From positions 1-33,039 of IMG/VR virus record IMGVR_UViG_3300032675_001516: 33,039 bases of DNA; one strand, written 5' to 3'. This stretch comes from a virus. Shown here piece by piece: positions 3,927 through 30,630 of this stretch; the stretch's first letter is position 1; each line of letters starts with the position of its first letter. The translations under genes and the position numbers were made by a program. The notes below the pieces were generated by a model that saw only the letters and a list, made by a program, of their open reading frames with translations, was not told where the DNA came from and ran no database searches.

Positions 3927-4564
3927 GTACGCAGCTAGTACCGTCGGAGTTTTCCACAGGTGCAAATTTGCGCTCCGACGAGGTTCAGGAATTTGAGGCC
4001 ATCGACGCCATGGTGCGAGCCTACGAGAAGCAATGGGTTCTGATCGCCCAGCAGTGCATTCGAGTCCAATCCGCGGCGCTCTGGCGGCATGGGGGGTACC
4101 ACAGCTACGAGCACTGGCTAAACGAAGCCGCTCCTAAGTCAGCGAGAACGATCTTCTACCACGTTGGGGTGGTCAAGGATCTGGCTCCAGACTTCACATC
4201 GGAAGAACTCGCAGAGATGCCCCCAGAGACCGCGAAGGTCATGCGGAGGCTGTCAACCTCAACCAGACGTGATCCGGCTGTCAGAGAGGCTGGGAAGCGC
4301 AAGAAACGGCAATTTATAGAGACCGTCCAAGAATTGCACCCCGAAGAACACCTTGAATCGACATTTAAGCTCGAATTGCAGTTTGAAGATTCGTTCTCGG
4401 GGATCTTCCGCACTTTTGTAGACGGAATCAGGGCTATCGAGGATGATCCGGAACTGAGCTACGAGAAATGCTTCGAGTTATCGATTCTCTCCTGGCTGAA
4501 TGAGTCTTTCTGTGAAAATACGACGAACCTGCAGCGGTTGAAGCAGTTGGAGATGTTAAAGTGA
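3923..4564 (+). CDS. Unknown early phage protein
   Basis: I do not recognise this 213-residue protein. It is acidic and mostly predicted helical, with no Cys pairs suggestive of zinc and no membrane segment. A motif SARTIFYHVGVVKDL (residues about 73-87) could belong to a helix-turn-helix, followed by MPPETAKVMRRL and a basic stretch GKRKKRQ. A DNA-binding or replication-accessory role fits its place between a primase finger and a nuclease. The gene overlaps both neighbours (ATGA at the start, GTGA at the end). A copy of the dispersed palindrome with one mismatch lies at 3961-3972 inside it. Confidence 0.75.
   Translation: MSTQLVPSEFSTGANLRSDEVQEFEAIDAMVRAYEKQWVLIAQQCIRVQSAALWRHGGYHSYEHWLNEAAPKSARTIFYHVGVVKDLAPDFTSEELAEMPPETAKVMRRLSTSTRRDPAVREAGKRKKRQFIETVQELHPEEHLESTFKLELQFEDSFSGIFRTFVDGIRAIEDDPELSYEKCFELSILSWLNESFCENTTNLQRLKQLEMLK
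3961..3972. repeat. Dispersed palindrome copy (one mismatch)
   Basis: TGCAAATTTGCG; the 10-bp core GCAAATTTGC is a perfect palindrome. It lies within the gene at 3923-4564. Confidence 0.8.
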
Positions 4565-4857
4565 TCCGTGTCACAAAAGACGGACGCACGATCCGGACCG
4601 CGAAGGACTATACCGCCTTCCGCCATGCTCTCTGGGAAATAAACCATGGGAACTGTTGGAAGTGTGAGCGGCGTACTAACCTGGTAGCGCATCCGAGCGC
4701 AGATAACTCGTTTCACGTTCACCACAAGGGCGGCCGAGGGCTCGGAGGGTCGAAGAGGGATGACACGTTTTTGAAGTGCAGCGGCTTATGTGGCTTCTGC
4801 CATCGTGGTCTTCATAATCAGGGCTGTAGCGGAGTTCCGCAATGGAGCAGAGCATGA
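4561..4857 (+). CDS. HNH-like endonuclease
   Basis: A 98-residue protein with CWKC (Cys32, Cys35), a histidine-rich centre HVHH-KGGRG (52-59) and CGFCHRGLH (77-85). This is the zinc-knuckle plus His arrangement of small phage HNH nucleases, which nick or cut DNA using a bound metal. It starts at a GTG overlapping the previous stop. It lies directly before a RusA-type resolvase and overlaps it, so a recombination or branched-DNA role is more likely than packaging. The exact catalytic His-Asn-His assignment is uncertain, and it could be a structural zinc protein. Confidence 0.65.
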   Translation: MIRVTKDGRTIRTAKDYTAFRHALWEINHGNCWKCERRTNLVAHPSADNSFHVHHKGGRGLGGSKRDDTFLKCSGLCGFCHRGLHNQGCSGVPQWSRA

Positions 4858-5321
4858 AACTTGAGTTCACAGTTTACGGGGAACCGATTCCGCAAGGTTC
4901 AATGAAAGCCTTCATCCCGAAGGGTTGGACTCGAGCCGTGCTGACCTCGGACAACAAACGCACAAAGCCATGGCGCCAGGAGGTAGCCAGCTCAGCACTC
5001 GAAGTCATGGACAAAGAAAACCTTGAGTGTGCCGGCAAGAACGTGCCATTTCTGCTGGCAGTAGTATTTCGCTTTACGAAGCCCAGGAGCGTTCGCAAGT
5101 CGATTCTCGAGAAAACTACCAAGCCAGACATAGATAAGCTCGTGCGGAGCATCCTAGACGCACTGACGGGCATTCTATTCGTTGACGACTCGCAAGTTGT
5201 GGCTATCTATGCTCGGAAGGAGTTTGGAGCACAGCCCATGGCGAAGATTTCAGCTTGGGAGATTGAGGAATTTCCGGTTGGAAAACCGGTCGTGCCGGAA
5301 TGGGTTGAAATACCGTTTTGA
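4842..5321 (+). CDS. rusA: RusA-family Holliday junction resolvase
   Basis: The product (159 residues from ATG 4842) carries the RusA signature: GEPIPQGSMKAF near the N-terminus, KPDIDKL (94-100) with the acidic pair Asp96/Asp98, and DALTGILFVDDSQV (106-119) with the third catalytic Asp. RusA dimers cut four-way junctions during phage recombination and before packaging. Two starts are possible: ATG 4842 (CGGAG upstream) or ATG 4854 (GGAG six bases upstream, giving MKLEFTVYG, the usual family start). It overlaps the HNH gene and is the last gene of the early operon, 50 bases before a terminator. Confidence 0.88.
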   Translation: MEQSMKLEFTVYGEPIPQGSMKAFIPKGWTRAVLTSDNKRTKPWRQEVASSALEVMDKENLECAGKNVPFLLAVVFRFTKPRSVRKSILEKTTKPDIDKLVRSILDALTGILFVDDSQVVAIYARKEFGAQPMAKISAWEIEEFPVGKPVVPEWVEIPF

Positions 5322-5358
5322 AAGGAGGCCGTGAGAAACTAGCTGGAGACAAATCCGA

Positions 5359-5520
5359 CTACTGAAAGTGGCGGGCTCCTTGGATAAGGGAGCCCGTTAT
5401 TCTTTTGTGATCGAAAAAACCACGACCTTTTCGAATGAACCTGTAACTCTCGTTGATCACTCTGAACGGGCTACCTTGTTCGCAGACGATGGGAGGTGCG
5501 AATTGTTTCCACTTTTCCAT
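5359..5520 (-). CDS. 53-residue unknown protein overlapping a terminator
   Basis: Minus-strand frame starting MEKWKQFAPPIVCEQG and ending QGARHFQ. GGAG stands six bases before its ATG and it follows the stop of the upstream gene by 34 bases, so it fits as the last member of the minus-strand operon. The last third is antisense to the plus-strand terminator hairpin. I recognise no domain; the protein is basic. The alternative is that the frame is open by chance. Confidence 0.5.
   Translation of the reverse strand: MEKWKQFAPPIVCEQGSPFRVINESYRFIRKGRGFFDHKRITGSLIQGARHFQ
5372..5406 (+). terminator. Rho-independent terminator of the early operon
   Basis: An eight-base-pair stem CGGGCTCC/GGAGCCCG (5372-5379 with 5389-5396), a nine-base loop and the tract TTATTCTTTT end the plus-strand replication operon. 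The hairpin lies inside the coding sequence of a small minus-strand gene (5359-5520). Confidence 0.75.
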
Positions 5521-5554
5521 TCTGGTCTCCTCAGTGCGGACCCTGATCGAGGGA

Positions 5555-5740
5555 TTACTCCCCCTTGGCCTTGCGGATCGCGGCTCTCATCTGCGGAATG
5601 CAGGCGCATATTCCGTCGCATTTGATAATAGGGTCGTCATCCTCGTGTCCAGTTTCCTTGTGCCAAGACTCGGCCTCGGCACAAATATGCTCCAGCGCTT
5701 CGAGCAGTTCCGGCGCGGCGGCGATCATGGGCTTGGTCAT
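5555..5740 (-). CDS. Small phage protein with APELLEALE motif
   Basis: A 61-residue protein starting MTKPMIAAAPELLEALE. This motif recurs in many small phage accessory proteins of unknown function and also, as IAAAPMLLKVM, in the gene at 5880-6179 of the same operon, suggesting related domains. Three cysteines (CDGICACI) follow. The ATG at 5740 is chosen because it overlaps the upstream stop by ATGA; a longer frame starting at 5815 has no such support. Confidence 0.7.
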   Translation of the reverse strand: MTKPMIAAAPELLEALEHICAEAESWHKETGHEDDDPIIKCDGICACIPQMRAAIRKAKGE

Positions 5741-5883
5741 TCCGACTTCTCCGACTGCAAAATCACCGCCTCGAAAATCTTCTCCAGTTGAGCGCCACGC
5801 CCGCAATGCGGACAATCGACCATGAGCACGATTTCTTTGTCGGGCAGCGAATTGAGATATTCGATCGCTTCGCGGACGGTCAT
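5737..5883 (-). CDS. 48-residue protein with CxxC knuckle
   Basis: The product starts MTVREAIEYLNSLPDKEIVLMVDCPHCG. The first part (VREAIEYLNSLPDKEIVLMV) resembles short conserved phage or bacterial domains that begin with a helix followed by a beta strand. One CPHC pair may bind metal with a partner. The start is fixed by the ATGA overlap with the preceding stop, and the end overlaps the next gene in the same way. The function is unknown. Confidence 0.65.
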   Translation of the reverse strand: MTVREAIEYLNSLPDKEIVLMVDCPHCGRGAQLEKIFEAVILQSEKSE

Positions 5884-6179
5884 CGCGAATGCTCCGTCAG
5901 CAGAACGGCTTTTTCGGCCCAAACTTTGATTTTAAAGAGATCCTCTCCGCGTTTCCATGCAGTCTGGGCGGCGTCTTCTTCTATGGGTTGTTCGGCGGCA
6001 AGTTGTGCGATTGTGCGCATCACCTTCAAGAGCATCGGTGCGGCCGCGATCAGTTGCGCGTCATCTGGAGTTTGATTGCAAATGCAGACCGTAGTCTGAT
6101 CGGCGGCATAAACGACGTGGGGATTCGCTACCCCTTGGTGCCAGGGGCCGTCAGTGGGCTTGATACCGGCGAGTTTCAT
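5880..6179 (-). CDS. Small phage protein with GPWHQG and IAAAPMLL motifs
   Basis: A 99-residue protein: TDGPWHQG, VVYAADQTTVCIC, then DAQLIAAAPMLLKVMRTI. I recognise the general pattern of a beta-rich N-terminus that ends in an alanine-rich IAAAPxLL helix; it is widespread in phage accessory regions and has no known function. The start at 6179 overlaps the upstream stop by one base (TAATG). Its tail shares the motif with the gene at 5555-5740, so the latter may be a truncated paralogue. Confidence 0.7.
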   Translation of the reverse strand: MKLAGIKPTDGPWHQGVANPHVVYAADQTTVCICNQTPDDAQLIAAAPMLLKVMRTIAQLAAEQPIEEDAAQTAWKRGEDLFKIKVWAEKAVLLTEHSR

Positions 6180-6364
6180 TACTTCTCCTCTCGTAGAATG
6201 TTGACCAAGTTGGGCAGCGCTTCGCGCTCTGCGATCGCCTCTTGAAGCCATTCGCGGTAAAGGTCGAGATGCACTTGCGCGTCGAGTCCGTGTGCGAGTT
6301 CAACGTACTTCTCGAGCAAGGCGACGATGCGGCGGAGTAGGCTGATTTCTTTATTAAGGCTCAT
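6179..6364 (-). CDS. Small helical protein, unknown
   Basis: A 61-residue protein starting MSLNKEISLLRRIVALLEKYVE. It is predicted all-helical and amphipathic, with no cysteine, metal site or membrane segment. Its stop overlaps the start of the next gene by one base. I recognise no family; protein-protein binding is only a guess from the helix pattern. Confidence 0.65.
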   Translation of the reverse strand: MSLNKEISLLRRIVALLEKYVELAHGLDAQVHLDLYREWLQEAIAEREALPNLVNILREEK

Positions 6365-6545
6365 GCGTTCCGATGGGCGTGCTGCTCTCGCGGGATTCGT
6401 TTTCAAGGTTCACTCTCACGTTCTGATGCCGCGGTGCGCGGACTTCCGGCTGGCCTAGCCGATGCTGGACGGGATTTTCTACTCGGCATCTAAGATTCCC
6501 GCCCGCCACTGTCCGCGCACCCAAAACTTTGGGAACTATATACAT
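6354..6545 (-). CDS. Possible 63-residue basic protein
   Basis: A minus-strand frame starting MYIVPKVLGARTVAGGNL and ending TPIGTHEP fills the gap between two better-supported genes; it begins 21 bases after the preceding stop and overlaps the next start by 11 bases. The only ribosome-binding candidate, GGGAG, is two bases from the ATG, which is too close. The sequence is rich in Arg and Pro and has no recognisable domain, so it may be non-coding. Confidence 0.35.
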   Translation of the reverse strand: MYIVPKVLGARTVAGGNLRCRVENPVQHRLGQPEVRAPRHQNVRVNLENESRESSTPIGTHEP

Positions 6546-6566
6546 AACTCCCTAAGTACAATGAAA

Positions 6567-6761
6567 TCACTCTCTGCACAAACTACACTTGCAGTCGCAG
6601 AAAAAGGATTCGCAGCCATTTCCGCGCAGCAGACAATGAGGCATTATCCTTCCGTGTTGGCGTGCCATCCAGCTAAGACCCCAATCGTGGACGCGCACGA
6701 TGGCTCCCCTGTCGCAGGAGTGAATAATCGAGGCGTTGATTTGCGTCTTTTCTTCTGCCAT
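6567..6761 (-). CDS. 64-residue protein with Cys-rich tail
   Basis: The product starts MAEEKTQINASIIHSCDRGA and ends CESFFCDCKCSLCRE, with five cysteines in the last 15 residues, which suggests a bound metal or an unusual zinc tail. GGAAAGGG lies eight bases before ATG 6761, supporting this start over one 18 bases upstream. It follows the previous stop by 24 bases. No family is recognised. Confidence 0.5.
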   Translation of the reverse strand: MAEEKTQINASIIHSCDRGAIVRVHDWGLSWMARQHGRIMPHCLLRGNGCESFFCDCKCSLCRE

Positions 6762-6785
6762 GAATTCGACCCTTTCCAAATAAAA

Positions 6786-7022
6786 TTATGCCCATTGATG
6801 CTCAGTGATAGAGATTGGTTCATTTTCAAACATGCTAGCGATTTGCTCAGCGTCCTCGCGTCGGCAGAAACGTATTGCCTTAGTCGAGTCATTGGTCCAA
6901 TCGAACTGCCACGCCGCTATGAGCCACATTGGCTCGCGCATGGGCGGAAGGCAACGCTCTATAAGCCAACCCGCCTCTTTGGTTGTTGCGCGATTCTCGA
7001 TTCTCGCTTGCTCGAGGTTCAT
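6786..7022 (-). CDS. 78-residue unknown phage protein
   Basis: The product starts MNLEQARIENRATTKEAGWLIE and contains PMWLIAAWQFDWTNDSTKAIRFCRREDAEQI. The latter looks like a small alpha/beta domain in which a residue run ending REDAEQIA begins a helix, as in single-domain phage accessory proteins. The ATG at 7022 overlaps the upstream stop (ATGA). The function is unknown. Confidence 0.7.
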   Translation of the reverse strand: MNLEQARIENRATTKEAGWLIERCLPPMREPMWLIAAWQFDWTNDSTKAIRFCRREDAEQIASMFENEPISITEHQWA

Positions 7023-7270
7023 CGCGCCACCTTGCCCAGGGAATCGATTGCGCTCCCGATGGCCCCACCACACCAAACCAGTATCGAAGCGATGGCTAAG
7101 GCCACCAGAACGTAAACACAGGCCATTGCAGTGTCGATCTGGCGCATCTCGCGCTGATAGCGAGCCTCGGTTTCGCCGGACCGGGCTAAAATCGGCCCAT
7201 CCAATCTAGCGAGTACCCGGTCCAGTTCTTGTTCGGTTGAATCAGGGCATCCTTCCCAAGCGATGGACAT
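7019..7270 (-). CDS. Small single-pass membrane protein
   Basis: An 83-residue protein with a charged N-terminal half and one strong transmembrane segment at about 48-70 (AMACVYVLVALAIASILVW), ending GSAIDSLGKVAR. It probably sits in the inner membrane with either orientation. ATG 7270 is preceded by GGAG at eight bases. It could be a holin-like or superinfection-exclusion protein given its size, but no lysis enzyme is near it, so neither is claimed. Confidence 0.7.
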   Translation of the reverse strand: MSIAWEGCPDSTEQELDRVLARLDGPILARSGETEARYQREMRQIDTAMACVYVLVALAIASILVWCGGAIGSAIDSLGKVAR

Positions 7271-7272
7271 TG

Positions 7273-7500
7273 CTAATTCTCCTTCCAAAGAGCTTTGATA
7301 CTTGGCAGTTCGCAGCAAATTCCGTTGTAGCCGAGGAAGTTGTTCCAGTCCTTCGACAGAAGGGTAATGGGGTCGGCGGTGACACGGTTTAAAACCTTAC
7401 CGAGGGATAACAGAGCCGTGCTGCCGCAGTCGCAACAGACGGGCGAATCCCCAATGTGATCGTTGCCGCAGAGCCATGATTTATCGAGTGGTATCAGCAT
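7273..7500 (-). CDS. Small zinc-ribbon protein
   Basis: A 75-residue protein with WLCGNDHIGDSPVCCDCGSTALL: Cys11, His15 and the CCDC group (Cys22-Cys25) suit a zinc ribbon, followed by a helical LGKVLNR segment. It is the first gene of the minus-strand accessory operon. GGAGAG lies eight bases before ATG 7500, and a promoter lies about 57 bases upstream. A perfect TGCAAATTTGCA palindrome sits in the leader at 7519-7530. Confidence 0.7.
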   Translation of the reverse strand: MLIPLDKSWLCGNDHIGDSPVCCDCGSTALLSLGKVLNRVTADPITLLSKDWNNFLGYNGICCELPSIKALWKEN

Positions 7501-7518
7501 TTCAGGTTCTCTCCGAGG

Positions 7519-7530
7519 TGCAAATTTGCA
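7519..7530. repeat. Dispersed palindrome copy
   Basis: TGCAAATTTGCA, exact, in the leader of the minus-strand accessory operon, between the promoter and first gene. It is the only copy outside a gene. Confidence 0.9.
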
Positions 7531-7556
7531 GCTTTAAGTCGTTGTGAACTGGTGCA

Positions 7557-7586
7557 AGAGTAGCGCAGAGAGCTATTGTTTGTCAA
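7557..7586 (-). promoter_or_regulatory. Promoter of the minus-strand accessory operon
   Basis: Minus-strand TTGACA (7586-7581) with an 18-base gap to TACTCT (7562-7557). CCTTGACAAACAA around the -35 is identical to that of the promoter at 1202-1230. A 57-base leader with a palindrome and a good ribosome site follows. Confidence 0.5.
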
Positions 7587-7595
7587 GGAAAATCA

Positions 7596-7624
7596 TTGAC
7601 AAGCAAATAAAACCTTGGTAATGT
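7596..7624 (+). promoter_or_regulatory. Promoter of the RHH-recombinase operon
   Basis: TTGACA (7596-7601), 17 bases, TAATGT (7619-7624). The -35 boxes of this and the opposing promoter form the inverted repeat TTGTCAA-N9-TTGACAA, so one regulator could cover both. The start codon follows after seven bases. Confidence 0.5.
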
Positions 7625-7631
7625 ATAGGTC

Positions 7632-7802
7632 ATGATCAATGAAACAAAGCAGAAACCAAAAACCAGATTCGTCGCGTTGCCTTCGGAAATTGACGATCGC
7701 GTGGTACAGCTCGCGGCGGAGGAGCGCAGAAGCGTTTCGAACATGATTATGCTCTTGGTCGAAAAGGGCCTCGATAGCGACCTACACAGTCGGGAGGAAT
7801 AG
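7632..7802 (+). CDS. Ribbon-helix-helix DNA-binding protein
   Basis: A 56-residue protein with the layout of Arc/CopG/MetJ-type regulators: a beta strand TRFVALP (11-17), helix A about 19-31 (EIDDRVVQLAAEE), the SVSNMI turn and helix B to about 46 (MLLVEKGL). Such proteins bind DNA as dimers through the strand and usually repress their own operon. The gene sits two bases before the recombinase start and shares its promoter region, so it may be an excision/directionality factor or repressor for it. No ribosome site precedes ATG 7632; the transcript is probably leaderless. The stop is TAG 7800-7802. Confidence 0.75.
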   Translation: MINETKQKPKTRFVALPSEIDDRVVQLAAEERRSVSNMIMLLVEKGLDSDLHSREE

Positions 7803-7804
7803 CC

Positions 7805-8341
7805 TTGAAACACCTTCAGATGGAACAAATCACCACTCTCTTGGACGCTACGAAGAACGACCGCGACCGCTTGTTTCTAACGATGACCTACGAGCACGGC
7901 CTGCGCGTCTCGGAGGCTTTGGCTCTGTCTCCGGATCGGGTCAAGAGCGGCCATTTACTAACAAAACCCGGCAAGGATGGAAAGTTAACAGTTCAGAAGT
8001 TGGCCCCAGATACGCTTAAGCTCTGGTCGGCGCTGACCTTGAACCTAGCGTCGGGCACGCGCGTTTTCCCGTTCACGCGCCAGCGTGCTCACACCATCTT
8101 CCACGCTGCTTGTGAAGCGGCCGGCATTGCCTTGGCCCCCCGCCAGGGTATTCACTCTCTACGCCACAGCATCGCGCACCACCTACTCGACTGTGGTTAC
8201 ACGCTTCCCATGGTTCAGCGCAAGCTCGGCCACCAATCCATTTCCTCCACTGGCTGCTACCTCCTTGCCGACGACTCCCAGGTCGATGCAGCCACAGCCG
8301 CGGTAATCTCCAGGCGAAAGGCTTGCGGGAAGGTTGCATAA
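7805..8341 (+). CDS. Minimal tyrosine recombinase (catalytic domain only)
   Basis: A 178-residue member of the lambda-integrase family, which breaks and rejoins DNA through a phosphotyrosine link. The active-site set appears complete: Arg34 (EHGLRVSEAL), Lys54 (LTKPGKDG), His117 and Arg120 (HSLRHSIAHHL), His143 (LGHQSISST) and the nucleophile Tyr152 (GCYLLADD). Arg34 is so near the N-terminus that no core-binding domain (about 80-100 residues) or arm-binding domain is present; usual family length is 300-400. The start is TTG 7805 with GGAGG seven bases upstream; the next gene overlaps the stop (TAATG). It follows an RHH gene. It may act in phage integration, but a dimer-resolution or DNA-switch role is equally possible. 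Confidence 0.85.
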   Translation: MKHLQMEQITTLLDATKNDRDRLFLTMTYEHGLRVSEALALSPDRVKSGHLLTKPGKDGKLTVQKLAPDTLKLWSALTLNLASGTRVFPFTRQRAHTIFHAACEAAGIALAPRQGIHSLRHSIAHHLLDCGYTLPMVQRKLGHQSISSTGCYLLADDSQVDAATAAVISRRKACGKVA

Positions 8342-8526
8342 TGCAAGATCACCTGAAATCGGTCGGTAAGACTATCGCTAACATCGAGTTAGATCATCCC
8401 AATGACCCAGAAACCTGCACCATCGCATTCACCGACGGCACGTCCCTCCAACTCTCCGCTTACTCCCCCGACATCTGCTACCTTTTCATCCAGTTCTCCC
8501 CAAACAAGCGCCCCATGAGCCGCTAA
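8341..8526 (+). CDS. 61-residue unknown protein
   Basis: Starts MQDHLKSVGKTIANIELDHPND at an ATG overlapping the recombinase stop by one base, with GGGAAGG seven bases upstream. The pattern IANIEL...CTIAFTDGTSLQLSAYSPDICYLFIQ looks like a small beta-sheet domain with an amphipathic edge. I do not recognise the family. Co-translation with the recombinase suggests an accessory role in the same operon. Confidence 0.65.
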   Translation: MQDHLKSVGKTIANIELDHPNDPETCTIAFTDGTSLQLSAYSPDICYLFIQFSPNKRPMSR

Positions 8527-8582
8527 TCGCTCGCACAAGGCACTTTACAGCACGTACCTACCTCGTTTACCCTCGTTAACCA

Positions 8583-8849
8583 GTGAATGTACCTTCTCCA
8601 GCTCCGAACAAAACAGAACGATTTGCTGCGATCCGCGCTCGCATGTCTGACCCGCGTGTTGGCTTCAAGATGTTGTCAACAAAGGGCGCTCGCCATGCGC
8701 ACAAAACGATCCTCGCCCAAGGTAGGAAGCTCTGCGAGGAGGCAAACGCGGCACGTAGGGCCAACGCGGCGCGCCGCCGCGAGGAAAAGGCCAAACAGGC
8801 GCTCCTGGGCCCGGCCTGGCGCTACGGGAACACCACGCAGAACGGGTAA
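8583..8849 (+). CDS. Basic Ala/Arg-rich unknown protein
   Basis: An 88-residue basic protein from GTG 8583 (MNVPSPAPNKTERFAAIRARM). A KGARHAHKTIL motif is followed by an Ala/Arg-rich helix (about 50-72) and the tail WRYGNTTQNG. There is no clear ribosome site; an alternative start is ATG 8643. The composition suggests nucleic-acid binding, but other frames over this stretch are also open, so it is less certain than its neighbours. Confidence 0.5.
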   Translation: MNVPSPAPNKTERFAAIRARMSDPRVGFKMLSTKGARHAHKTILAQGRKLCEEANAARRANAARRREEKAKQALLGPAWRYGNTTQNG

Positions 8850-9078
8850 TCGGCCCGCCGCCTGGATAGACAATCGTGTGTATCTCCTTTGTTATCAACG
8901 AGAGTTAACGAACTGTTAGATTGTAAACCGATTCATTTCCAGCCCAGGGACCCCCCGCGGGCACCCCATCGGGAAAAGGCAAGCCCCCCGGCTCACTAAT
9001 GAGGGTGCGGGGAAATACTAATGCAGTCCTCCGTGGAGATTTTCGTAGGATTTTGGTGGTACAGAGACCAGATACCTG

Positions 9079-9135
9079 TTGACAATGCGCACAGTCGGTG
9101 TACATTGTCACCATGGTTCCTGTGTACATTGTCAC
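9079..9135 (+). promoter_or_regulatory. Promoter with three operator half-sites
   Basis: TTGACA (9079-9084) is 16 bases from TACATT (9101-9106). The same bases form an inverted repeat, TGACAATGCGCAC (9080-9092) against GTGTACATTGTCA (9098-9110), 11 of 13 matching with a five-base spacer. A third copy, GTGTACATTGTCAC (9122-9135), is an exact 14-base repeat of 9098-9111. A repressor bound here would block both promoter boxes and the start codon. The region 8850-9078 upstream holds no supported gene. Confidence 0.55.
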
Positions 9136-9496: not shown

Positions 9497-9576
9497 AGCC
9501 CCTGGACTGGTTGGTGCTGGTGATGATTGTTTCGTTGGCGGTAGCCCTGGCGGTGTCGTGTAGGGTGATTGGGTGA
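9493..9576 (+). CDS. 27-residue membrane peptide
   Basis: The peptide starts MKPLDWLVLVMIVSLAVALAV and ends SCRVIG. It is one hydrophobic helix, so a small membrane peptide is likely. It overlaps the previous gene by ATGA and the next by GTGA, which argues that it is translated. The role is unknown; size and neighbours give no basis for a holin call. Confidence 0.55.
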   Translation: MKPLDWLVLVMIVSLAVALAVSCRVIG

Positions 9577-9975: not shown

Positions 9976-10223
9976 ACATTCCCCAATGCCCGAACCACCT
10001 GAAATCAAAGTCTATCTGCGAGGTCAGTAAACTCCGCCTGATCGGGGAGAGCGACCAGGCCTTTAATTTCTTCTGCGCCTCCTGCCAGTTGCTCTGGTCG
10101 GTCACCAAGCCTCGGACGAAAGAAAAGGCTCGCTTCGAAAACAGTGTCCGGAAAATTCAGCAGGCATCCGAAATTGAAAGACAGAAAGCCGCAAGGCGGT
10201 TGTACTCCTTCCCATCCAAATGA
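9972..10223 (+). CDS. Small zinc-finger protein with basic helix
   Basis: An 83-residue basic protein with Cys6-x2-His9 and CASC (Cys35, Cys38), then a long basic helix (about 48-77). ATG 9972 overlaps the previous stop by ATGA, and its own stop overlaps the next start, so this start is well fixed. Nucleic-acid binding is plausible from finger plus basic helix; no family is recognised. Confidence 0.65.
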   Translation: MNIPQCPNHLKSKSICEVSKLRLIGESDQAFNFFCASCQLLWSVTKPRTKEKARFENSVRKIQQASEIERQKAARRLYSFPSK

Positions 10224-11566
10224 TAAACTTTTGCACGACCTGCCGCGGACGAACCTCCCACTTAAAAATAACCCTTCCCCGTAATCTTGCAGACAACAAA
10301 TCTCCCAACTCCCGTTTTGTAGTGCTCAATTACAACAGCCCCGACGGGCTCCTGGACTATGTCGTGACGCACCACCGGGAAGACCTGCGAACTGGAAAAC
10401 TAGTGGTCTATAGTTTCGCTCCCGATGATGGTAAGTGGCATATGGCGCACGCCAAGAGTATGGCGATGCGGCTGGGCATCTTGGAGGGAGCCGACACGGT
10501 TGTGACCCTCGATGCCGATAACTTCGCCGGTCCGAACTTGGACGAATACATCGCCGCTAATCTTGAGCCGGGGAGCTTCCTGCATCCCGACTTCGCCGCC
10601 ATCAAGAAAATGCCATGGACTGCAGAAAGGCCTTTACGTGGTTTTGCCGGCCGGTTGGCCATTCGGTCGCAGGATTTCCTGAAACTCGGTGGCTACGACG
10701 AACAGTTCGATATTTGGGGCAGCGAAGACATTGACCTGCTAGGCCGCCTGCACCGTTCTGGATACACTCCGAAGTTCTTTCATTACAAAAACCTCTACAC
10801 CATTCCCCACGGGCCAGAGGTCCGCTTCAAGGAATACCCTGAGGCGGAAAAGAACGAAGCCAAGGAACATAGTCGTTGGATTGATTCGCGGACGGAAACC
10901 GTAGTCAACTATGGGAAGTTTGGCATGGGGACCGTCTACAGGAATGGTGATCCAACTCCGATCACGCTAGGCCCAGTTCCCACCCGAGTATTCGGTATCG
11001 GACTCCACAAGACAGCCACTAGTTCCCTGCACAAGGCGTTTCAGTCTCTAGGCTTCGATAGCCTGCATTGGGGTAATGGTGAAGCCCCGCTGATCTGGCA
11101 GGAAGTCAACGCCGCAGGCCGGTCGAAAACCTTGGAGCGCTTCTACGCCGCTTGCGATATTCCCATCCCCTTGCTCTATCAAAAACTGGATAAGGCGTAT
11201 CCCGGATCGAAGTTCATCTTGACTACCAGAGATGAATCCGAGTGGCTGACGAGCGTGGAGAGGATGTGGGACGCGAAGTACAACCCAACGCGATGGCAGT
11301 GGGATGTTTGGCCGATTTCCAATCGACTGCATACGGCGTTGTATGGCCGCAGCGACTTCGACGCGCAAACGATGCTAAGCCGCTACCGCCAGCACAATGC
11401 CGAAGTTGTGGAGTACTTTAAGGATCGTCCTGACGACCTGTTGGTCATGGATATGTCGAACGGGGCCGGATGGCTGCAAATTTGCACCTTTTTAGGGAAG
11501 CCGGTCCAGAGCGCTCCCTACCCTAGGGAGTACCCAACGCGGGAAGTGGGGTCGCCAGAATCATGA
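10220..11566 (+). CDS. Glycosyltransferase-sulfotransferase fusion
   Basis: A 448-residue cytoplasmic-type protein of two enzymes. Residues 1-235 form a GT-A glycosyltransferase like family 2/galactosyltransferase-C types: FCTTCRGR start, a DxD metal site LDADN (97-101) and GGYDEQF...WGSEDIDL (157-172), which binds donor sugar and acceptor. Residues about 255-435 match P-loop sulfotransferases of the Sulfotransfer_4 kind: PAPS phosphosulfate loop GIGLHKTATSSL (259-270), FILTTRDESEW (332-342) as 3'-phosphate region, and a C-terminal LLVMDM...FLGKP. The predicted sequence is sugar transfer and sulfation by one polypeptide. No transmembrane segment is visible. It overlaps both neighbours. The substrate could be host surface polysaccharide or a virion protein; neither is shown. 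A TGCAAATTTGCA palindrome lies at 11475-11486. Confidence 0.8.
   Translation: MINFCTTCRGRTSHLKITLPRNLADNKSPNSRFVVLNYNSPDGLLDYVVTHHREDLRTGKLVVYSFAPDDGKWHMAHAKSMAMRLGILEGADTVVTLDADNFAGPNLDEYIAANLEPGSFLHPDFAAIKKMPWTAERPLRGFAGRLAIRSQDFLKLGGYDEQFDIWGSEDIDLLGRLHRSGYTPKFFHYKNLYTIPHGPEVRFKEYPEAEKNEAKEHSRWIDSRTETVVNYGKFGMGTVYRNGDPTPITLGPVPTRVFGIGLHKTATSSLHKAFQSLGFDSLHWGNGEAPLIWQEVNAAGRSKTLERFYAACDIPIPLLYQKLDKAYPGSKFILTTRDESEWLTSVERMWDAKYNPTRWQWDVWPISNRLHTALYGRSDFDAQTMLSRYRQHNAEVVEYFKDRPDDLLVMDMSNGAGWLQICTFLGKPVQSAPYPREYPTREVGSPES
11475..11486. repeat. Dispersed palindrome copy
   Basis: TGCAAATTTGCA, exact, near the end of the glycosyltransferase-sulfotransferase gene. On the minus strand it shares AGGTGCAAATTTGCAGC with the copy at 7519. 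Confidence 0.9.
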
Positions 11567-20096: not shown

Positions 20097-20896
20097 TGAA
20101 TCTAGAGCAAGTTTTGCAGGACAAAACAGGCTACGAGGACAGTATTGAGATTGTCATCAAAGGGGAGAAGGTTACCCTTGGCGATTTGCGAACTCTGTCC
20201 GCTACTCAGCAACGTCAACTTTCGGACAAAATTTCTGGTGCCGAACGGCGCGAATCCGAAGCGCGAGATGTGGCCCAGAAGGCTGCCACGATGCTGGCCG
20301 AACTGAAAACCGCCCATGACGCATTACAGGCGCAGCGCACGACCCCGCCAAGTGAGGACGACTTCGACAAGGAAGAGTTCTGGGGCCCCGTGCGAAAAAG
20401 GTTTTCTGATCGTGATGCAAAGATCGATCAGGCCCTCAAGGGGATCGAGGCCCTAACGAACAGCGTGAAGCAGGCCGCTACCATTTGGGCGGAAGATCGC
20501 TTCCAGGGCCAGTTTGAAAAGAACGCCTCCCGGTTGAAGAAGGTTGATCAGTACAAAGACTGGGATTACAAGAAAGTCCGCGACTACGCGGCTGAGCACA
20601 AGGTTCTCGATGACTACGGGATGCCTTCGGTCGAAAGAGCCATTCTCGAACTGACCAAAGCCAACGACATTGAGACGATCCGCAAGGAAGCCTACGCGGA
20701 AGGCCTGAAAGCCGCCAAGACCAAAAATCGCCTCGAAGCTCAACCCCGCCCCTCGTCCGCTACCGGTGGGCGTCAGCCGGCAGACAAGAGCGCCGTTGCT
20801 GAAATCGGCCTTGAAGGTTTGGGGGATGACGCAATCAATGATCCCGAACTGATGGAAATGTTTGCCCAGATCCAGAATGGTGGAGAAGTTCAATGA
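20096..20896 (+). CDS. Scaffold protein (predicted)
   Basis: A 266-residue, mostly helical protein immediately before the capsid gene, the usual place for the scaffold that guides procapsid assembly and leaves before DNA entry. A charged coiled-coil-like stretch covers about 40-85 (SATQQRQLSDKISGAERRES and on), a second helical region follows at 110-200, and the C-terminus is acidic and polar. The evidence is position plus composition, since scaffolds share little sequence. The start is ATG 20096 in a TAATG overlap. Confidence 0.65.
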   Translation: MNLEQVLQDKTGYEDSIEIVIKGEKVTLGDLRTLSATQQRQLSDKISGAERRESEARDVAQKAATMLAELKTAHDALQAQRTTPPSEDDFDKEEFWGPVRKRFSDRDAKIDQALKGIEALTNSVKQAATIWAEDRFQGQFEKNASRLKKVDQYKDWDYKKVRDYAAEHKVLDDYGMPSVERAILELTKANDIETIRKEAYAEGLKAAKTKNRLEAQPRPSSATGGRQPADKSAVAEIGLEGLGDDAINDPELMEMFAQIQNGGEVQ

Positions 20897-21246
20897 AAAA
20901 CGTATCGAGTTTCTTGTCAGGCACGATCGATAAGGCCCTGCTCGCTAACGGCGTGCAGTTGACCGGTAAAGAACTAACTCCGGTTTCAAGGCAGGTTGCG
21001 GAGTACGTCTACCTGAACGAGGAAGCATTCAATAAGGCGTTTGCAGAGGACAAGAAAGTGCGCGCCGAAGTGGATGCCGCCGAAGCACAAGCGGAGAGAG
21101 AACGCGCCGAGGCCGCGGGAGAGCCGGTTAAGGAAGCGCCTGCAAATTTGCAGCCAGCTCCGGCGCAAGGTGGCAAAAGCTGGTGGTGGAGACAGCAGCA
21201 GGCCCGAGCTGTGACGGCAGAAGATCAGGCGGGTGAAAAGGTTTAG
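20893..21246 (+). CDS. Unknown protein between scaffold and capsid
   Basis: A 117-residue protein starting MKNVSSFLSGTIDKALLANG. Its middle is a charged Ala/Glu-rich helix (residues about 60-80) and the end is WWWRQQQARAV. It may be a second scaffold-like component or head decoration. The start overlaps the scaffold stop by ATGA. A TGCAAATTTGCA palindrome lies at 21141-21152 within it. Confidence 0.6.
   Translation: MKNVSSFLSGTIDKALLANGVQLTGKELTPVSRQVAEYVYLNEEAFNKAFAEDKKVRAEVDAAEAQAERERAEAAGEPVKEAPANLQPAPAQGGKSWWWRQQQARAVTAEDQAGEKV
21141..21152. repeat. Dispersed palindrome copy
   Basis: TGCAAATTTGCA, exact, within the gene between scaffold and capsid (20893-21246). Confidence 0.9.
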
Positions 21247-22345: not shown

Positions 22346-22354
22346 GGAGCAGGT

Positions 22355-23035: not shown

Positions 23036-23063
23036 ATTTTTGGTTGCCCTTGGGTATGGACTT

Positions 23064-23101
23064 GGGTGGCTGTTGGCTTCGGCCAGAAGCCACCCATTTT
23101 T
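23064..23101 (+). terminator. Strong terminator after the capsid genes
   Basis: Outer stem GGGTGGCT/AGCCACCC (23064-23071 with 23088-23095) and inner TGGC/GCCA stem capped by a TTCG tetraloop, followed by ATTTTTG. It separates the head genes from the tail genes. Confidence 0.85.
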
Positions 23102-23115
23102 GTTAGGAGCGAAAA

Positions 23116-24585: not shown

Positions 24586-24608
24586 CCGATTAGGGTAGGA
24601 GCATATAT

Positions 24609-24800: not shown

Positions 24801-27800
24801 TGGGTGTTAAGCCATCTACGTTCGGCGCCTTCGTAAAAGGCTGTGACGCCTCGACGGGAAGATTAATCCAGCCGAAGGGCTCGGTCCCTCGCGCGTCGAA
24901 TCTGCTCATGTCAAAAAGAGGATCGCTCCGCACTTGCGATGGTACCGACATAATCGACGCCTACAACGGCGTACCTACTTCCGGCCGCGGTCGCGCCATG
25001 GCTGAGTTCTTCTTTGCCCCTACTGGAGTTGCTGGCTACTACCTCCGGATCATGCAAGCTCTGGACCAGCATCTTGGGGCGCCCCGAAATCTCGCGGTGT
25101 CAGTCGTCAGTGGCGGTTCGCTGGTGTCAGAAACCTACTACTGGGTGGTCACGGCGATTGACGGGGCCGGGGGTGAAACAGTCATCTCCAATGAAGTTTC
25201 TGCGACGGTCAGCGGGGGAGAAACGGCCGACTTGACTTGGAACGTTGTACCGAATGCCTTTGGCTACAACGTGTATCGCGGGACGACTCCGGGAGGAGAA
25301 GTTTTACTCAGTGGTCCGGGCTTGCCTGCTCCGTCCAACTCGTATCAGGACAACGGCTCGGCTTCTCCGAGTGGTGGGACCTATGCCGTTGTGACCCTGC
25401 AGGCGACGTTTGAGGGGTTTGCGACGGTCACACTGACGACTCCGGTCAACAATGGTTTTATCGGCCAAGCAGGGGTGTACACGGCGGGCTCGAATGCGAG
25501 CTTCAATGGAAGCTATGAAATCGTCAATCAGACTGCTCCGACGGTGATTACCATCAAGGGAGGCACACAGACCGAACCAGCATTTTCCGATGGTGGAACG
25601 TTTGCCATCGGTGTGGCGATTACCCCTCCTGACACCGACACGACGCAGCAGACAGCCTTATACGCCATGCCAGCGCCAATAGAGGGCGTTACCTACACCG
25701 ACGAGAATATCGTTGCCCTGTTTCCCGCGGCTCAGGCTGGCGGGACCTTACAGCAAGGCTACAGCCCGTCTGGTGGGGTCATAGGTGCGGTAGGACTCCA
25801 GCCCCAGATGGCTCAGTTTACAAATCAGGCTGTGTTGGCCCTCGGGAACGGATTCGCTCCACAGGTCTACTCCGATCCGAATGGAACACTGACGAATCCG
25901 GCAACTATTGTGCCGATTTCTGCGATCAGCGTGGATGCGAATGGGGTGGTCACGGTGACGACCTCGAGCCCGAACAATATCAACCCGACCGTGAATTCTT
26001 TCCCATCGTGGCAGAAGGACACGGCTTACAGTGTTGGAGACACGATTGTTCCGATTCCCGAAAACGGCTATTATTACACGGCCACGCGAGCGGGCACGAG
26101 CGGTTCAACGCAACCAATTTGGCCAACCACGATCGGGCAGAGCGTGGACGACGGCGGTTCCCTGTTTACCTCAGTGCTCTGGGACTGTGCCGGTCTGGTT
26201 TCGATCATTAACGCGCAGCAAGGCCTGGGAGCGAATGTTTACATCTCGGGGGTAGCAGACCCTGTTTATAATACAAACGGTTTTGGCGCGAGTGCCTTCA
26301 CGACTATTTCGGTTCCGAGTGCAACTGAAGTGCAGATTGTGAATCCGCACGCGATTGGACAACCCCCGTCCAGCGGTGGGTTTATGACGGTGACGACCAT
26401 TCCTATCGTTTCCACATTCCTGCCGTCCTTTCCGGTGTGGACTACGGCTGTTTCCTACGCGGTTAACTCGGTGATTGAGCCCACGGTATCGAATGGGTAC
26501 TATTACACCGCAACAACTTCGGGAATCAGCGGCGGGACACAGCCTACCTTCCCGACAACCATCGGCGCCACGGTCACAGATGGCACGATCATATGGAAGA
26601 ATTCAGGGACGTTGCTCAGTGCAGCTCCTCCCCCGCCTGGGTGTGGTCATCTTGCGGTCTATTCCGGGTCACTCTGGATGTTCAATACTTGGGTCACGAA
26701 TACGGGCCCAAGTACGAACACGGGCACAGGTGCAACGCCGATCGCGCCTAATACTTCGACCGGATTGGACGGCCCATGCAGTCTGCGAATGTCGGACGTG
26801 AACAACCTGCAGTCATGGAACCCAGTCAATCAGGCGTTCCTTGACAAAGATGACGGCACGGAGGGCATGGGTTTAGGTTCGTTCACGATCGCCGCGCAGG
26901 GCATCCCGCCAGAGGGTAGCCTGTGCGCCTTTAAGAGACGTGCGGTTTATCAGATTGTTGGAGTTTTCGGTGCTTCCAACTTCCTGATTCAGCGCGTACA
27001 GAGCGATATGGGGATATTGTCTCCCCGGACACTCCAGTTCGTTCCCGGCTTCGGACTGATGCGGCTGACCTACATCGGCATTGGCGTGTTCGACGGGGTA
27101 AATGACCGCATTGTGAGCACGCAAGTTCAGCCCTACCTGATCGGTTCGAACGATCCGGACACGGCCGACATCGTTCCGATGGACCCGGAGTGGCAGACGG
27201 TATGCCAGTCGGCTCTAGTGGCTAATCCTCCGATGTACGTGACGGCCATCCCGATTGCCTCGACGCCGGGAGGTTCTGACGGGATGCTGACCAGAATCAT
27301 GTGTTTCGATATGGTGCTCAAGGCGTGGGCCATTGTGGACCTTCCGTTTCCAATTTCTACGATGTTCGGGGTGGTGACATTCTCCACTATCGCCGCGACG
27401 GTTATGGGCTCGTTTAGCGATGGTACCTTACAGCAGTGGCAGAACGAGGATTTAACTTGGGCGACCTCCTCGAGCGGCTCTAGTATTCCGGGGCAGATCG
27501 CGTGGGCGATGCAGAGCCCGACGACAGCAAGCAAGGACGCTTCGGGTCGCTTCTATCTCCGTCGGACGGTAGTTTTGGGCCAGCAAGATCCGAACGCTCC
27601 ATCGACCATGACCATCCGGACTCGGAACGGTGGAGTGGTGTTTGCTACCCAGAATCTACCGATGCCAAACTCGGGTGATATTCAGGTGCAGGCGGCGGCG
27701 GGCTCGACGGGACGACGTTTCGATGCGATTATCTCGGGGTTAGGCAGGATCACGATCGACAGTATCGAATTTCAAATCGAGCCTCGGCCAAGTGGGGTTA

Positions 27801-27820
27801 TGGCGGGAGCTATAAGCTAG
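24800..27820 (+). CDS. Tail hub/DNA-stabilisation protein (P22 gp10-like) with inserted domains
   Basis: A 1006-residue protein. Flanks match the gp10-type tail hub found after the adaptor in podoviruses: an N-terminal region (residues 1-90) and a C-terminal region with GMGLGSFTIAAQGIPPEGSL, PRTLQFVPGFGLMRLTYIGI and FDMVLKAWAIVDLPFP. The insertions are an FN3-like module (about 94-190), a FNGSYE beta module (205-270), and two tandem CBM5/12-like carbohydrate-binding modules (403-460 and 547-601), each with a W...Y..GD-type start, GYYYTAT, SG.TQP..PTTIG and a final DG...W. The insertions may help receptor binding. The ATG 24800 start overlaps the preceding stop. Confidence 0.7.
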   Translation: MGVKPSTFGAFVKGCDASTGRLIQPKGSVPRASNLLMSKRGSLRTCDGTDIIDAYNGVPTSGRGRAMAEFFFAPTGVAGYYLRIMQALDQHLGAPRNLAVSVVSGGSLVSETYYWVVTAIDGAGGETVISNEVSATVSGGETADLTWNVVPNAFGYNVYRGTTPGGEVLLSGPGLPAPSNSYQDNGSASPSGGTYAVVTLQATFEGFATVTLTTPVNNGFIGQAGVYTAGSNASFNGSYEIVNQTAPTVITIKGGTQTEPAFSDGGTFAIGVAITPPDTDTTQQTALYAMPAPIEGVTYTDENIVALFPAAQAGGTLQQGYSPSGGVIGAVGLQPQMAQFTNQAVLALGNGFAPQVYSDPNGTLTNPATIVPISAISVDANGVVTVTTSSPNNINPTVNSFPSWQKDTAYSVGDTIVPIPENGYYYTATRAGTSGSTQPIWPTTIGQSVDDGGSLFTSVLWDCAGLVSIINAQQGLGANVYISGVADPVYNTNGFGASAFTTISVPSATEVQIVNPHAIGQPPSSGGFMTVTTIPIVSTFLPSFPVWTTAVSYAVNSVIEPTVSNGYYYTATTSGISGGTQPTFPTTIGATVTDGTIIWKNSGTLLSAAPPPPGCGHLAVYSGSLWMFNTWVTNTGPSTNTGTGATPIAPNTSTGLDGPCSLRMSDVNNLQSWNPVNQAFLDKDDGTEGMGLGSFTIAAQGIPPEGSLCAFKRRAVYQIVGVFGASNFLIQRVQSDMGILSPRTLQFVPGFGLMRLTYIGIGVFDGVNDRIVSTQVQPYLIGSNDPDTADIVPMDPEWQTVCQSALVANPPMYVTAIPIASTPGGSDGMLTRIMCFDMVLKAWAIVDLPFPISTMFGVVTFSTIAATVMGSFSDGTLQQWQNEDLTWATSSSGSSIPGQIAWAMQSPTTASKDASGRFYLRRTVVLGQQDPNAPSTMTIRTRNGGVVFATQNLPMPNSGDIQVQAAAGSTGRRFDAIISGLGRITIDSIEFQIEPRPSGVMAGAIS

Positions 27821-28260
27821 TGATTACAGAGACGCAAGACTTCGATGTGATGCAGTTTTTAGCACCAAAGGATGAGGCTCGCCTGCTTGGTCCGGATGAG
27901 GAAATCCCCGCTGAACTGGAAGCAGGGTTCGATCAACTCGGAAAGTTAGATCGAAACTGGGTCTGGGTTGTGCAGTCGGATTGGAAGATTAAGGGGGTGT
28001 TGCTTGCATCGCCATGTCACGGGTCTGCGTTCGTCTGGAGGATATGTTTGGATCCATCGCTTTCTAATGTCGCCGTTATACGCCTTTTAAGGCGATTCCT
28101 GAGCGATATAAGAGCGCGGGGACTGGTAGGGTACATGACGATCATCGACCCCGCCAAGGCCCTGCAAGCGCGTCTAAAACACATCATCGTGAAAGCAGGC
28201 GGTCAGTCGTTCGGGAATTATGAGATGTTGGTGTCTCCAACGCCGCGGGAGGGGCTGTAA
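27820..28260 (+). CDS. GNAT-like acetyltransferase (predicted)
   Basis: A 146-residue protein from GTG 27820, overlapping the tail hub stop by one base. Pattern VWVVQSDWKIKGVLLASPC, WRICLDPSLSNVAVIRLLRRFLSDIRARGLVGYMT and a late FGNYEMLVSP fit the acyl-CoA N-acyltransferase fold: strand, the pyrophosphate-loop helix and a C-terminal strand. The R/Q-x-x-G-x-G/A loop is not clear, so catalytic activity is uncertain. Such proteins occur beside tail genes in some podoviruses. Confidence 0.5.
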   Translation: MITETQDFDVMQFLAPKDEARLLGPDEEIPAELEAGFDQLGKLDRNWVWVVQSDWKIKGVLLASPCHGSAFVWRICLDPSLSNVAVIRLLRRFLSDIRARGLVGYMTIIDPAKALQARLKHIIVKAGGQSFGNYEMLVSPTPREGL

Positions 28261-28776
28261 GTGCCAGCAATCGCCGGGATTATCCCACTGATAACCGCTT
28301 CTCTGGCCGCAGTCGGCACCGGTGTGTCGATTGACGAGGCTCTGAACGCTCCGAGCGCCCCAAAGATTAGCACTACGCCCACGCCTTTGACTTCAACGCA
28401 GAATGCAGGGCAGGCAGCGGCGGTCAGCCAGCAACTACCGACGCTCCAAACTTTGACAGGCGGTTCGTTGTCGCCAGAGTATTACAGCCAGTTCGGTGGA
28501 CAGGCGGCGGGAGTAGCGAATAACCCGCAGGCGACTGGTAATATCCAGTCTGCAATCAATCAGTTGTTCGGGTTTTCCTCTCCCGGCCAGACTGGCTTAA
28601 CGCCTGCGACTTCGACGGGAACAACTCCGGCGACACAGGGCGGTGGAAGTGGGTTACCGGGGATATTGGACTTGCTGCAGAAGCCGAGTGGCGGGAGTTC
28701 CCCATTCGGCGGCGGTGGCCCGGCATGGCTATCGCAGGCATTGAACAACAATCCCTATCAGGGACTACAGGCATAG
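28261..28776 (+). CDS. Internal/ejection protein candidate 1
   Basis: A 171-residue protein from GTG 28261 with a hydrophobic N-terminal stretch (IAGIIPLITASLAAVGTG) and a Gly/Ser/Gln/Pro-rich remainder. The tail hub is followed by several such low-complexity proteins, the usual place of podovirus ejection proteins. The hydrophobic part may insert in the host membrane on DNA entry. Sequence alone does not prove it. Confidence 0.55.
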   Translation: MPAIAGIIPLITASLAAVGTGVSIDEALNAPSAPKISTTPTPLTSTQNAGQAAAVSQQLPTLQTLTGGSLSPEYYSQFGGQAAGVANNPQATGNIQSAINQLFGFSSPGQTGLTPATSTGTTPATQGGGSGLPGILDLLQKPSGGSSPFGGGGPAWLSQALNNNPYQGLQA

Positions 28777-28779
28777 CTT

Positions 28780-29331
28780 ATGGATGGACTTGGAGCAATT
28801 GTACCTTTACTCAGCGGCGGGGCGGCGGTAGCCGGAACCGGTGGGAATATTTTGGAAGACGTCAAGAAAAACGACTACCAGAATTTTATTCTCAATCTGG
28901 TTAAAAATCCGACCGCTTTTGCCGCGTTGATTTCCAAACTCCAGCAACCGTTGAACGCTGGCCTAACGCAATCAGTGGGGAATCAGGTGCAGGGACAGAT
29001 GGCAGAACGCGGGCTGTCGCAGGCCCCCGGTATCTTCGCTGGTGCGGAGTCTCAAGCCCTCGCTCCGTTCTATCAGCAGAACCAGAGCACGGCCACAAAC
29101 GCTCTTTTACAAGCTCTTGGTTTGCCCGCGGGTACGTTTGGTCAGCCAGTTAATACGACTGGGGCGTGGCAGGGCTTGTTCAAGGGCTTACCGCCGCAGA
29201 GCAGTGGCAATTGGAGTGGACAGTTTAGCGACCCGGCGCTCGGCGGGATTCAGTACATGCCGGGTGGCTACGGCGGGGCAGTTGGGCCTGATCCGGCAGC
29301 ACCGACCTATGATCCTTCGTGGGGGAGTTAA
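28780..29331 (+). CDS. Internal/ejection protein candidate 2
   Basis: A 183-residue protein starting MDGLGAIVPLLSGGAAVAGTG. A helical centre (LVKNPTAFAALISKLQQPL; AERGLSQAPGIFAGAESQALAPFYQQNQ) is followed by a Gly/Pro-rich end. The same hydrophobic N-terminus as its upstream neighbour suggests the two are related. The role is inferred from order. Confidence 0.55.
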   Translation: MDGLGAIVPLLSGGAAVAGTGGNILEDVKKNDYQNFILNLVKNPTAFAALISKLQQPLNAGLTQSVGNQVQGQMAERGLSQAPGIFAGAESQALAPFYQQNQSTATNALLQALGLPAGTFGQPVNTTGAWQGLFKGLPPQSSGNWSGQFSDPALGGIQYMPGGYGGAVGPDPAAPTYDPSWGS

Positions 29332-29334
29332 CAA

Positions 29335-30630
29335 ATGGCGTGGCTCACTTCGATACTCCAAAACGTCGGGCGAACAGGGAGCGATATTTCCGACGCCAAG
29401 AGTGCAAATTTGCAGGAGAAGCAAAGGACACAACAGTTCCAGACTCAACAAAAGGAACTGCAGCAGCGCTTCCAGCAGAACGCGGCTCCCACGGTGGTGC
29501 ATACCTATCGCGCCTCAGACGGGAAACTGCATAACCTCGTTCGGAACCCGATGGACGGGAAGATTACGGATCAGGTAGCAGAAGGGGCGGCGCAGGAACT
29601 CACTCCCGGCCAGCAGAAGATCAAAGACGCGGAAGTAGCGCTCGGGCGCCCGCTAAGCGACAAAGAAAAAGAGATTCTCACGGGAATCATTCCCAAGCCT
29701 TCCGCCTCGCAGGACTTGTCGGACAAGTGGACCGAGGCAACGAAGATCGGCCAGCAGCAGTTCCCGAATGACCCGCAGAAGGCGATGGAGTTTGCCCGCT
29801 CGCTCATGCCGGGAGGGGCGTCGGTCAATCAGATGGTCTTTCCGCAGTTGAAGAAAACGACTGGCCTCGACCCGATCATTACGGCTCAGATTGGCAAGCC
29901 TCCGGATCCGTCGATCTACCCCAAGGGCGAAGATGACCCGATTTACAAGGCCAAGGCGAAGCAGTGGGGCGTGGAGGCCGAAAACATCAAGAATCGCATG
30001 GTAGAGGCTCGAGGGATGGGCTACAACATGACCCGAATCGGGGCCTACGTCGATGACGATGGAAATCTAATAACCACGACCGGCGGTACTGCCATGGCGA
30101 AAGGCTATACGCCGGCAGCTCCCACGTTTCAGTTGATGTCAAAGAACGCTCAGTTTCAGGAAATGGAGAATGCTTCCGGTAAACTTCGCGGAGCAATCGA
30201 AGCCTTGCAGCCGGGAGACGCTTTCACTCCCGATCAAGTGGCGAAACTATCACTGGCTTCGCGTGCGCCTGACGAGGGGGCATTCCACGCGATTATCAGT
30301 AATATGGCTTCCGGCACAACGAACGAGCGCCAACAAGACTATCTGATTTGGCTTGGCCAGATGGGGGAGCGCATCTTGTCGCTGCGAAACATCGCTGGCA
30401 TGGGCCAAGGCGCGCAAGATCTACGCGCGGCGATTCAAGCTACGTTGCCGAATCTATCGTCTGGCTCGAAGGAATTTGCGCTGAAACGTCTGGATGCGGT
30501 GGATAACCAAATAAATCTGCTGCAGAAAGGTATCGGGAAACTGAAGAACAATCCGGCCACGAATGGTGCGGGACAGCTGCCTCCGGGTGCAAAGATTATC
30601 AAGTGGGACGACGTGAAACCAAATGCCTGA
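29335..30630 (+). CDS. Internal/ejection protein candidate 3
   Basis: A 431-residue protein starting MAWLTSILQNVGRTGSDISDA. Residues about 20-55 form a Gln/Glu-rich coiled coil; the centre is an alpha-rich part with DPQKAMEFARSLMPGG, EARGMGYNMTRIGAYVDDDGN, and the C-terminus is helical (QDLRAAIQATLP, RLDAVDNQINLLQKGIGKL). No enzyme motif is seen. The length fits an ejection protein. A palindrome copy lies at 29403-29414. The end overlaps the next gene by eight bases. Confidence 0.6.
   Translation: MAWLTSILQNVGRTGSDISDAKSANLQEKQRTQQFQTQQKELQQRFQQNAAPTVVHTYRASDGKLHNLVRNPMDGKITDQVAEGAAQELTPGQQKIKDAEVALGRPLSDKEKEILTGIIPKPSASQDLSDKWTEATKIGQQQFPNDPQKAMEFARSLMPGGASVNQMVFPQLKKTTGLDPIITAQIGKPPDPSIYPKGEDDPIYKAKAKQWGVEAENIKNRMVEARGMGYNMTRIGAYVDDDGNLITTTGGTAMAKGYTPAAPTFQLMSKNAQFQEMENASGKLRGAIEALQPGDAFTPDQVAKLSLASRAPDEGAFHAIISNMASGTTNERQQDYLIWLGQMGERILSLRNIAGMGQGAQDLRAAIQATLPNLSSGSKEFALKRLDAVDNQINLLQKGIGKLKNNPATNGAGQLPPGAKIIKWDDVKPNA
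29403..29414. repeat. Dispersed palindrome copy
   Basis: TGCAAATTTGCA, exact, near the start of the ejection-protein candidate at 29335-30630. Confidence 0.9.

Follow-up and report, generated by a model that had tools for sequence, protein, structure and literature searches.

The 12-bp palindrome TGCAAATTTGCA, which recurs along the 33,039-base stretch of viral DNA analysed here (the window), very probably serves as the recognition site for a DNA-binding protein encoded by this soil phage itself. The strongest candidate is the product of gene 3923-4564, for which binding to the palindrome is predicted with high confidence, and its main role is more likely than not genome-wide gene regulation combined with autoregulation. 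Support at the level of sequence comes from the non-random occurrence of the sites, the coupling between the gene and the type of site, a site near the gene, intergenic enrichment and, in some relatives, a fixed distance to the -35 box.

Occurrence of the palindrome in the phage genome

Exact copies of TGCAAATTTGCA are present at 7519, 11475, 21141 and 29403, with a one-mismatch copy at 3961, all as given in the initial annotation. These sites, together with the two genes to which they draw attention, are as follows.

3923-4564, plus strand: proposed palindrome binder, 213 aa, with a helix-turn-helix-like segment; distant PHROG 17202 relative
3961-3972: site 1, TGCAAATTTGCG (one mismatch), 38 bp into the proposed binder gene
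7273-7500, minus strand: zinc-ribbon-like ORF, 75 aa, located downstream of site 2, with 61% identity to its counterpart in phage G115; a candidate for regulation
7519-7530: site 2, exact; the start codon of the minus-strand ORF 7273-7500 follows after 18 bp
11475-11486: site 3, exact, at the end of a glycosyltransferase/sulfotransferase gene, about 76 bp before the next gene (11563)
21141-21152: site 4, exact, in gene 20893-21246, about 130 bp before the major capsid gene
29403-29414: site 5, exact, 68 bp into gene 29335-30630

The rarity claimed for the palindrome holds in a Markov check, as models of order 0-5 expect 0.001-0.011 copies (for the exact 12-mer, 0.0013-0.0042 at orders 0-4 and 0.011 at order 5). 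Moreover, dinucleotide shuffles of the window gave a mean of 1.6 matches at two or fewer mismatches, and none of 100 reached the observed five; a chance origin of the repeats is excluded by these expectations and shuffles. TGCAAATTTGCA is the sole repeated palindrome of 10-12 bp in the window, where all five occurrences of CAAATTTG fall inside GCAAATTTGC. The 17-base identity that had been noticed between two copies is likewise real, with AGGTGCAAATTTGCAGC at 7516-7532 and inverted at 11473-11489. Coding constraint was rejected as the cause of the sites, since they lie in two frames, on both strands and also outside genes.

Several near-identical contigs overlap the window, the longest being G005 (54,627 bases), and placement on these indicates a circularly permuted genome of about 56.5 kb. 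Because this extended genome adds two exact copies, at window-equivalent positions ~48253 and ~55858, the phage has seven sites in total, six of which are exact. The flanks of the palindrome are also informative, since in one orientation each of the six exact sites reads [G/C]TGCAAATTTGCAG. With gene starts outside annotated records taken from a simple ORF rule, five of the seven sites lie between -120 and +80 relative to a gene start, where 23% would be expected (P=0.009).

Recognisable genes of the phage are those for a terminase, capsid, RusA, primase, helicase and tyrosine integrase. The gene at 10220-11566, whose 3' end holds the site at 11475, combines by Pfam a galactosyltransferase-like domain at the N-terminus with a sulfotransferase domain at the C-terminus. 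Positions 10-480 of the window are occupied by a 12-nt tandem repeat array of the CCCAGACCGAAG/T type with at least 25 registers, open at the window start, and a similar array is present in the related virus G014 (blast hits). G005 31378-32688 (L048 11378-12688, minus strand) encodes a protein with a long DSVWASV/DSVGASV repeat run and adjoins recombination genes.

Distribution of the palindrome among host genomes and viruses

The host of the window phage is probably an acidobacterium, as judged from the Tunturi phage and Terriglobia homologs described below; a prophage search in genomes carrying the terminase found none. The initial annotation had named four candidate identities for the palindrome, of which a repressor or stoperator site and a partition mark stay in contention, while a host-wide iterated palindrome and a methylation site do not fare well. 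Across 95 genomes of one acidobacterial order the motif occurs at about 0.05 copies per Mb, versus about 124 per Mb in the phage, and these counts speak against a host-wide palindrome in that order, from which the actual host of the phage may differ. A methylation target is unlikely, as it would not be expected to recur at regular intervals, to lie next to the family gene or to covary with a helix-turn-helix protein.

Among 31 viruses chosen for having at least one copy of the palindrome, 30 have exactly one and the remaining virus has two, so the counts of seven in the window phage, five in G115 and four in G116 are outliers. With background levels in genomes of the acidobacterial order and outlier counts in a few phages, the motif therefore belongs to particular phages. 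Separately, the metagenome-assembled genome QHYN01 (Acidobacteria gp2; L301-L306) holds six copies of the palindrome inside a dispersed repeat of its own around TGCAAATTTGCACCTTTnTTTTCAA, two of the six (C126 and C341) being in near-identical surroundings.

Coupling of the sites to gene 3923-4564

Phage G115 (40.7 kb) has five copies of the palindrome in a genome that is otherwise different from that of the window phage, and shares with it only the homolog of 3923-4564 (61% over 206 residues), the small ORF and tail-fibre pieces. In both phages one site is found in the 5' part of the family gene and another adjoins the small ORF (7273-7500 in the window), the position of site 2 (7519) being matched at the equivalent place in G115. 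Among annotated phages, direct homologs of 3923-4564 (26-32% identity) are limited to Tunturi_1 and Tunturi_2, acidobacterial (Tunturiibacter) podoviruses with lytic cycles that were isolated by Demina et al. (PMC11924767). Here, a de novo palindrome search returned GTCCAAnnTTGGAC as the top iterated palindrome, with 5 and 6 copies versus 0.004 expected, and this sequence keeps the two-half-site layout of TGCAAATTTGCA with one base changed per half; no palindrome site adjoins the family gene in these two phages, which counts against the proposed model.

The initial annotation had made a functional claim depend on the sites being present in related phages. Relatives without sites do exist, namely the capsid and terminase relatives G018 and G014, with which most structural genes are common and in which no iterated palindrome was found, yet the same two also have no 3923-4564 homolog. 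In fact, when all window-phage proteins were compared, 3923-4564 was the sole gene common to G005, G115 and Tunturi_1/2 and absent from G018 and G014. The zinc-ribbon-like ORF 7273-7500 was considered as the binder and rejected, for it is common to G115 but absent from the Tunturi and other phages, which makes it more likely a target. An AlphaFold2 model of the 3923-4564 protein had a pLDDT of 42.6, too low to confirm a fold.

Palindrome copies were also found in fragments where a family member was not detected: G116 (IMGVR_UViG_3300036793_000015, 33,094 bases; L310-L311), possibly incomplete, has four exact and one near copy in its 33 kb, which counts against the proposed binder, and sites occur in G011 and in G019, the latter sharing site 4 (21141). 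Such fragments, and a motif common to phages of one host group, would suit a host protein whose signal the phages have adopted. We consider this highly improbable, because the acidobacterial genomes searched contain the motif only at background frequency, relatives without the gene are also without the sites, and in phages of unrelated hosts the TGCAA half-site recurs only together with the phage gene.

Relationship to PHROG 17202

No direct match was obtained between the 3923-4564 protein and PHROG 17202, a family of unknown function. A profile built from four proteins of its close group found homologs in 23 of 399 Terriglobia genomes (E down to 8.9e-16), and these match PHROG 17202 at 1e-12 to 5e-16. 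On homology, the window protein is a putative member, joined transitively through its acidobacterial relatives and not by direct match: whereas Vibrio, Stenotrophomonas, Rhizobium, Pseudomonas and Agrobacterium phage members belong to the sequence family itself, the proteins of the window phage, G115 and the Tunturi phages have diverged too far for a direct match. In many phages a Cas4-like exonuclease and RuvC are encoded directly upstream of the family gene in a constant neighbourhood, and in the window the neighbours are primase, HNH and RusA. A search of the open-access literature found no paper on the motif or on the function of the family.

The acidobacterial chromosomal homologs carry TGTGCAACCnGGTTGCACA within the gene itself, where protein constraint may be a further cause. 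In the Terriglobia genomes (L366, L368-L373) the homolog genes contain TGTGCAACC[T/A]GGTTGCAC, which encodes C-A-T-W-L-H; it may be an autoregulatory site inside the gene and thereby influence the protein sequence.

Palindromes in further family-bearing elements

Every family-bearing phage examined, from Acidobacteria, Vibrio, Pseudomonas, Rhizobium and other hosts, has its own scattered sites of similar type. All 13 further elements with the gene contain a dispersed palindrome of the TGCAA-n-TTGCA type, weaker in SIO-2. The first seven (six phages and one Rhizobium plasmid) were found through the acidobacterial homologs and then scanned, which revealed half-sites of TGCAA or GCAAT in up to 41 exact copies (V-YDF132, 25; HJ05, 16; Rhizobium p7, 41; DLP_3, 25-31; RcZahn, 8; LV6, 16; KarBoss, 8), KarBoss being the weakest. 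Six more phages were picked solely for carrying the gene, with a TGCAA-type palindrome predicted in writing before the scan. Five of these gave 30 (SM1), 17 (TM16), 47 (L338C), 33 (JP1) and 27 (RcKickapoo) exact copies versus 0 for the reversed control, and SIO-2 showed a weaker but clear excess at one or fewer mismatches (26 versus 4 in the reversed control). SIO-2 is again the exception where the family gene itself is concerned: in the other 12 of the 13 elements, this gene has a site 60-195 bp upstream.

In a null set of 20 viruses without the family (first 40 kb of each), a palindrome with at least three copies turned up in five; only one or two of these repeats were strong and none was of the TGCAA type. 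The P-values of the scans are Poisson values per motif under a second-order model, and the effects far exceed any correction for the number of motifs. A control virus, G527 (L335-L336), has a different iterated inverted repeat, CTATTA-n7-TAATAG, in 10 copies within 40 kb (expected 0.007). Because the non-acidobacterial phages have a common gene backbone (Cas4-RuvC-family gene), they do not count as independent, and in this set the binder could be encoded by another shared gene.

Arrangement of the sites

The 33 sites of V-YDF132 are 1.25-4.4 kb apart with a CV of 0.37, far more regular than random, and intervals are significantly regular also in LV6, HJ05 (where this hinges on including near-matches), DLP_3, p7, L338C, JP1 and SM1; spacing is not regular in RcZahn and RcKickapoo. 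Even spacing is not expected of plain operators, and the regular intervals in these eight elements would suit a ParB-, Noc- or SlmA-like organiser, in which evenly spaced sites compact, segregate or separate phage DNA (for example, that of a phage-plasmid) and regulation is secondary. The occurrence of family members in DLP_3 and on the Rhizobium plasmid p7 points the same way, and DLP5, the sister phage of DLP_3, was isolated as a phagemid (PMC7326821). We nonetheless regard an organiser as fairly unlikely to be the primary explanation, given the strong intergenic enrichment and the fixed distance to the -35 box. Likewise, no ParA partner was seen adjoining the family gene in the window or in the other phages (where the neighbours are Cas4 and RuvC), DLP_3, SM1 and V-YDF132 have separate ParB-domain genes, the lytic Tunturi phages carry the family gene too, and in the window phage itself the regularity of spacing is not significant (P=0.17).

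Intergenic enrichment was seen at P<0.01 in eight of the ten elements tested. In L338C, V-YDF132, LV6 and p7, a group of sites precedes -35-like boxes by 7-12 bp. The site centre would then fall near -51, where activators are found more often than occluding repressors. Several sites of the window phage and G115 are instead close to a start codon, up to about 30 bp before it or 70 bp after it, and look more like operators. With -35-linked sites in some groups and start-codon sites in others, the sign of regulation may therefore differ between groups. Arguing against a regulator, many sites are inside genes with no evident promoter.

Because primase, RusA/RuvC and exonuclease genes surround the family gene, the sites might instead serve recombination or replication as start points, pausing sites or annealing marks. 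This reading takes its support from the constant Cas4-RuvC pair upstream and the primase, HNH and RusA genes in the window, and is quite improbable, as the fixed promoter relation and the intergenic enrichment would not be expected from it.

Comparison with known dispersed-site systems

The repressor gp71 of mycobacteriophage L5 has tens of short stoperators scattered through the phage genome, many of them close to gene starts, and these are asymmetric and oriented with transcription. The present system is alike in its short dispersed sites, many near gene starts, and its predicted phage-encoded binder, and differs in that the sites are perfect palindromes without fixed orientation (the flanks occur in both) and are evenly spaced in most relatives. 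Phage N15 SopB with its dispersed centromere sites, and P1 ParB with parS, are phage proteins that act on a few scattered inverted repeats. The likeness is again one of scattered inverted repeats for which binding by a phage protein is predicted, whereas here there are up to 60 sites, no ParA adjoins the gene and the 3923-4564 protein matches no Pfam ParB family at E<=10. The chromosomal nucleoid-occlusion proteins Noc and SlmA, finally, are helix-turn-helix proteins on many dispersed palindromes, as is predicted here, but there is no Pfam match to their families, and in our case promoters hold many of the sites and a further site lies by the protein's gene. Between the stoperator-like and partition-like identities first proposed, the data indicate a phage-encoded binder (3923-4564) and favour a regulatory role.

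Proposed mechanism and significance

In the regulatory model, the phage's own likely helix-turn-helix protein would occupy the palindromes, probably as a dimer that in the window phage reads TGCAA half-sites 2 bp apart (TGCAA-AT-TTGCA). Through these sites, scattered over the whole genome, it would control the gene that encodes it together with a number of other phage genes. The outcome would be an operator- or stoperator-like network with some sites at promoters or leaders and others regularly spaced inside genes. We infer direct binding and dimerisation from the sequence comparisons, and the effect may be activation, repression or road-blocking.

Taken together, the family and its sites point to an undescribed system of genome-wide phage control or organisation. 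As a tentative and rather speculative extension, this may be a widespread chromatin-like system of phages, in which a helix-turn-helix family (PHROG 17202 plus the acidobacterial branch) and regularly spaced palindromes, bound by it over entire genomes of phages and phage-plasmids, would link genome organisation with the control of promoters, while protein and site co-evolve between phage groups. For PHROG 17202, whose function is unknown and which by homology extends to about 60 sequenced phages, the present analysis offers a concrete predicted activity and recognition sequence. Regulons may thereby become readable from the sequences of many phages, among them lytic ones of Pseudomonas and Vibrio as well as temperate phage-plasmids, and the even spacing prompts one to ask whether dedicated dispersed-site proteins organise phage genomes.
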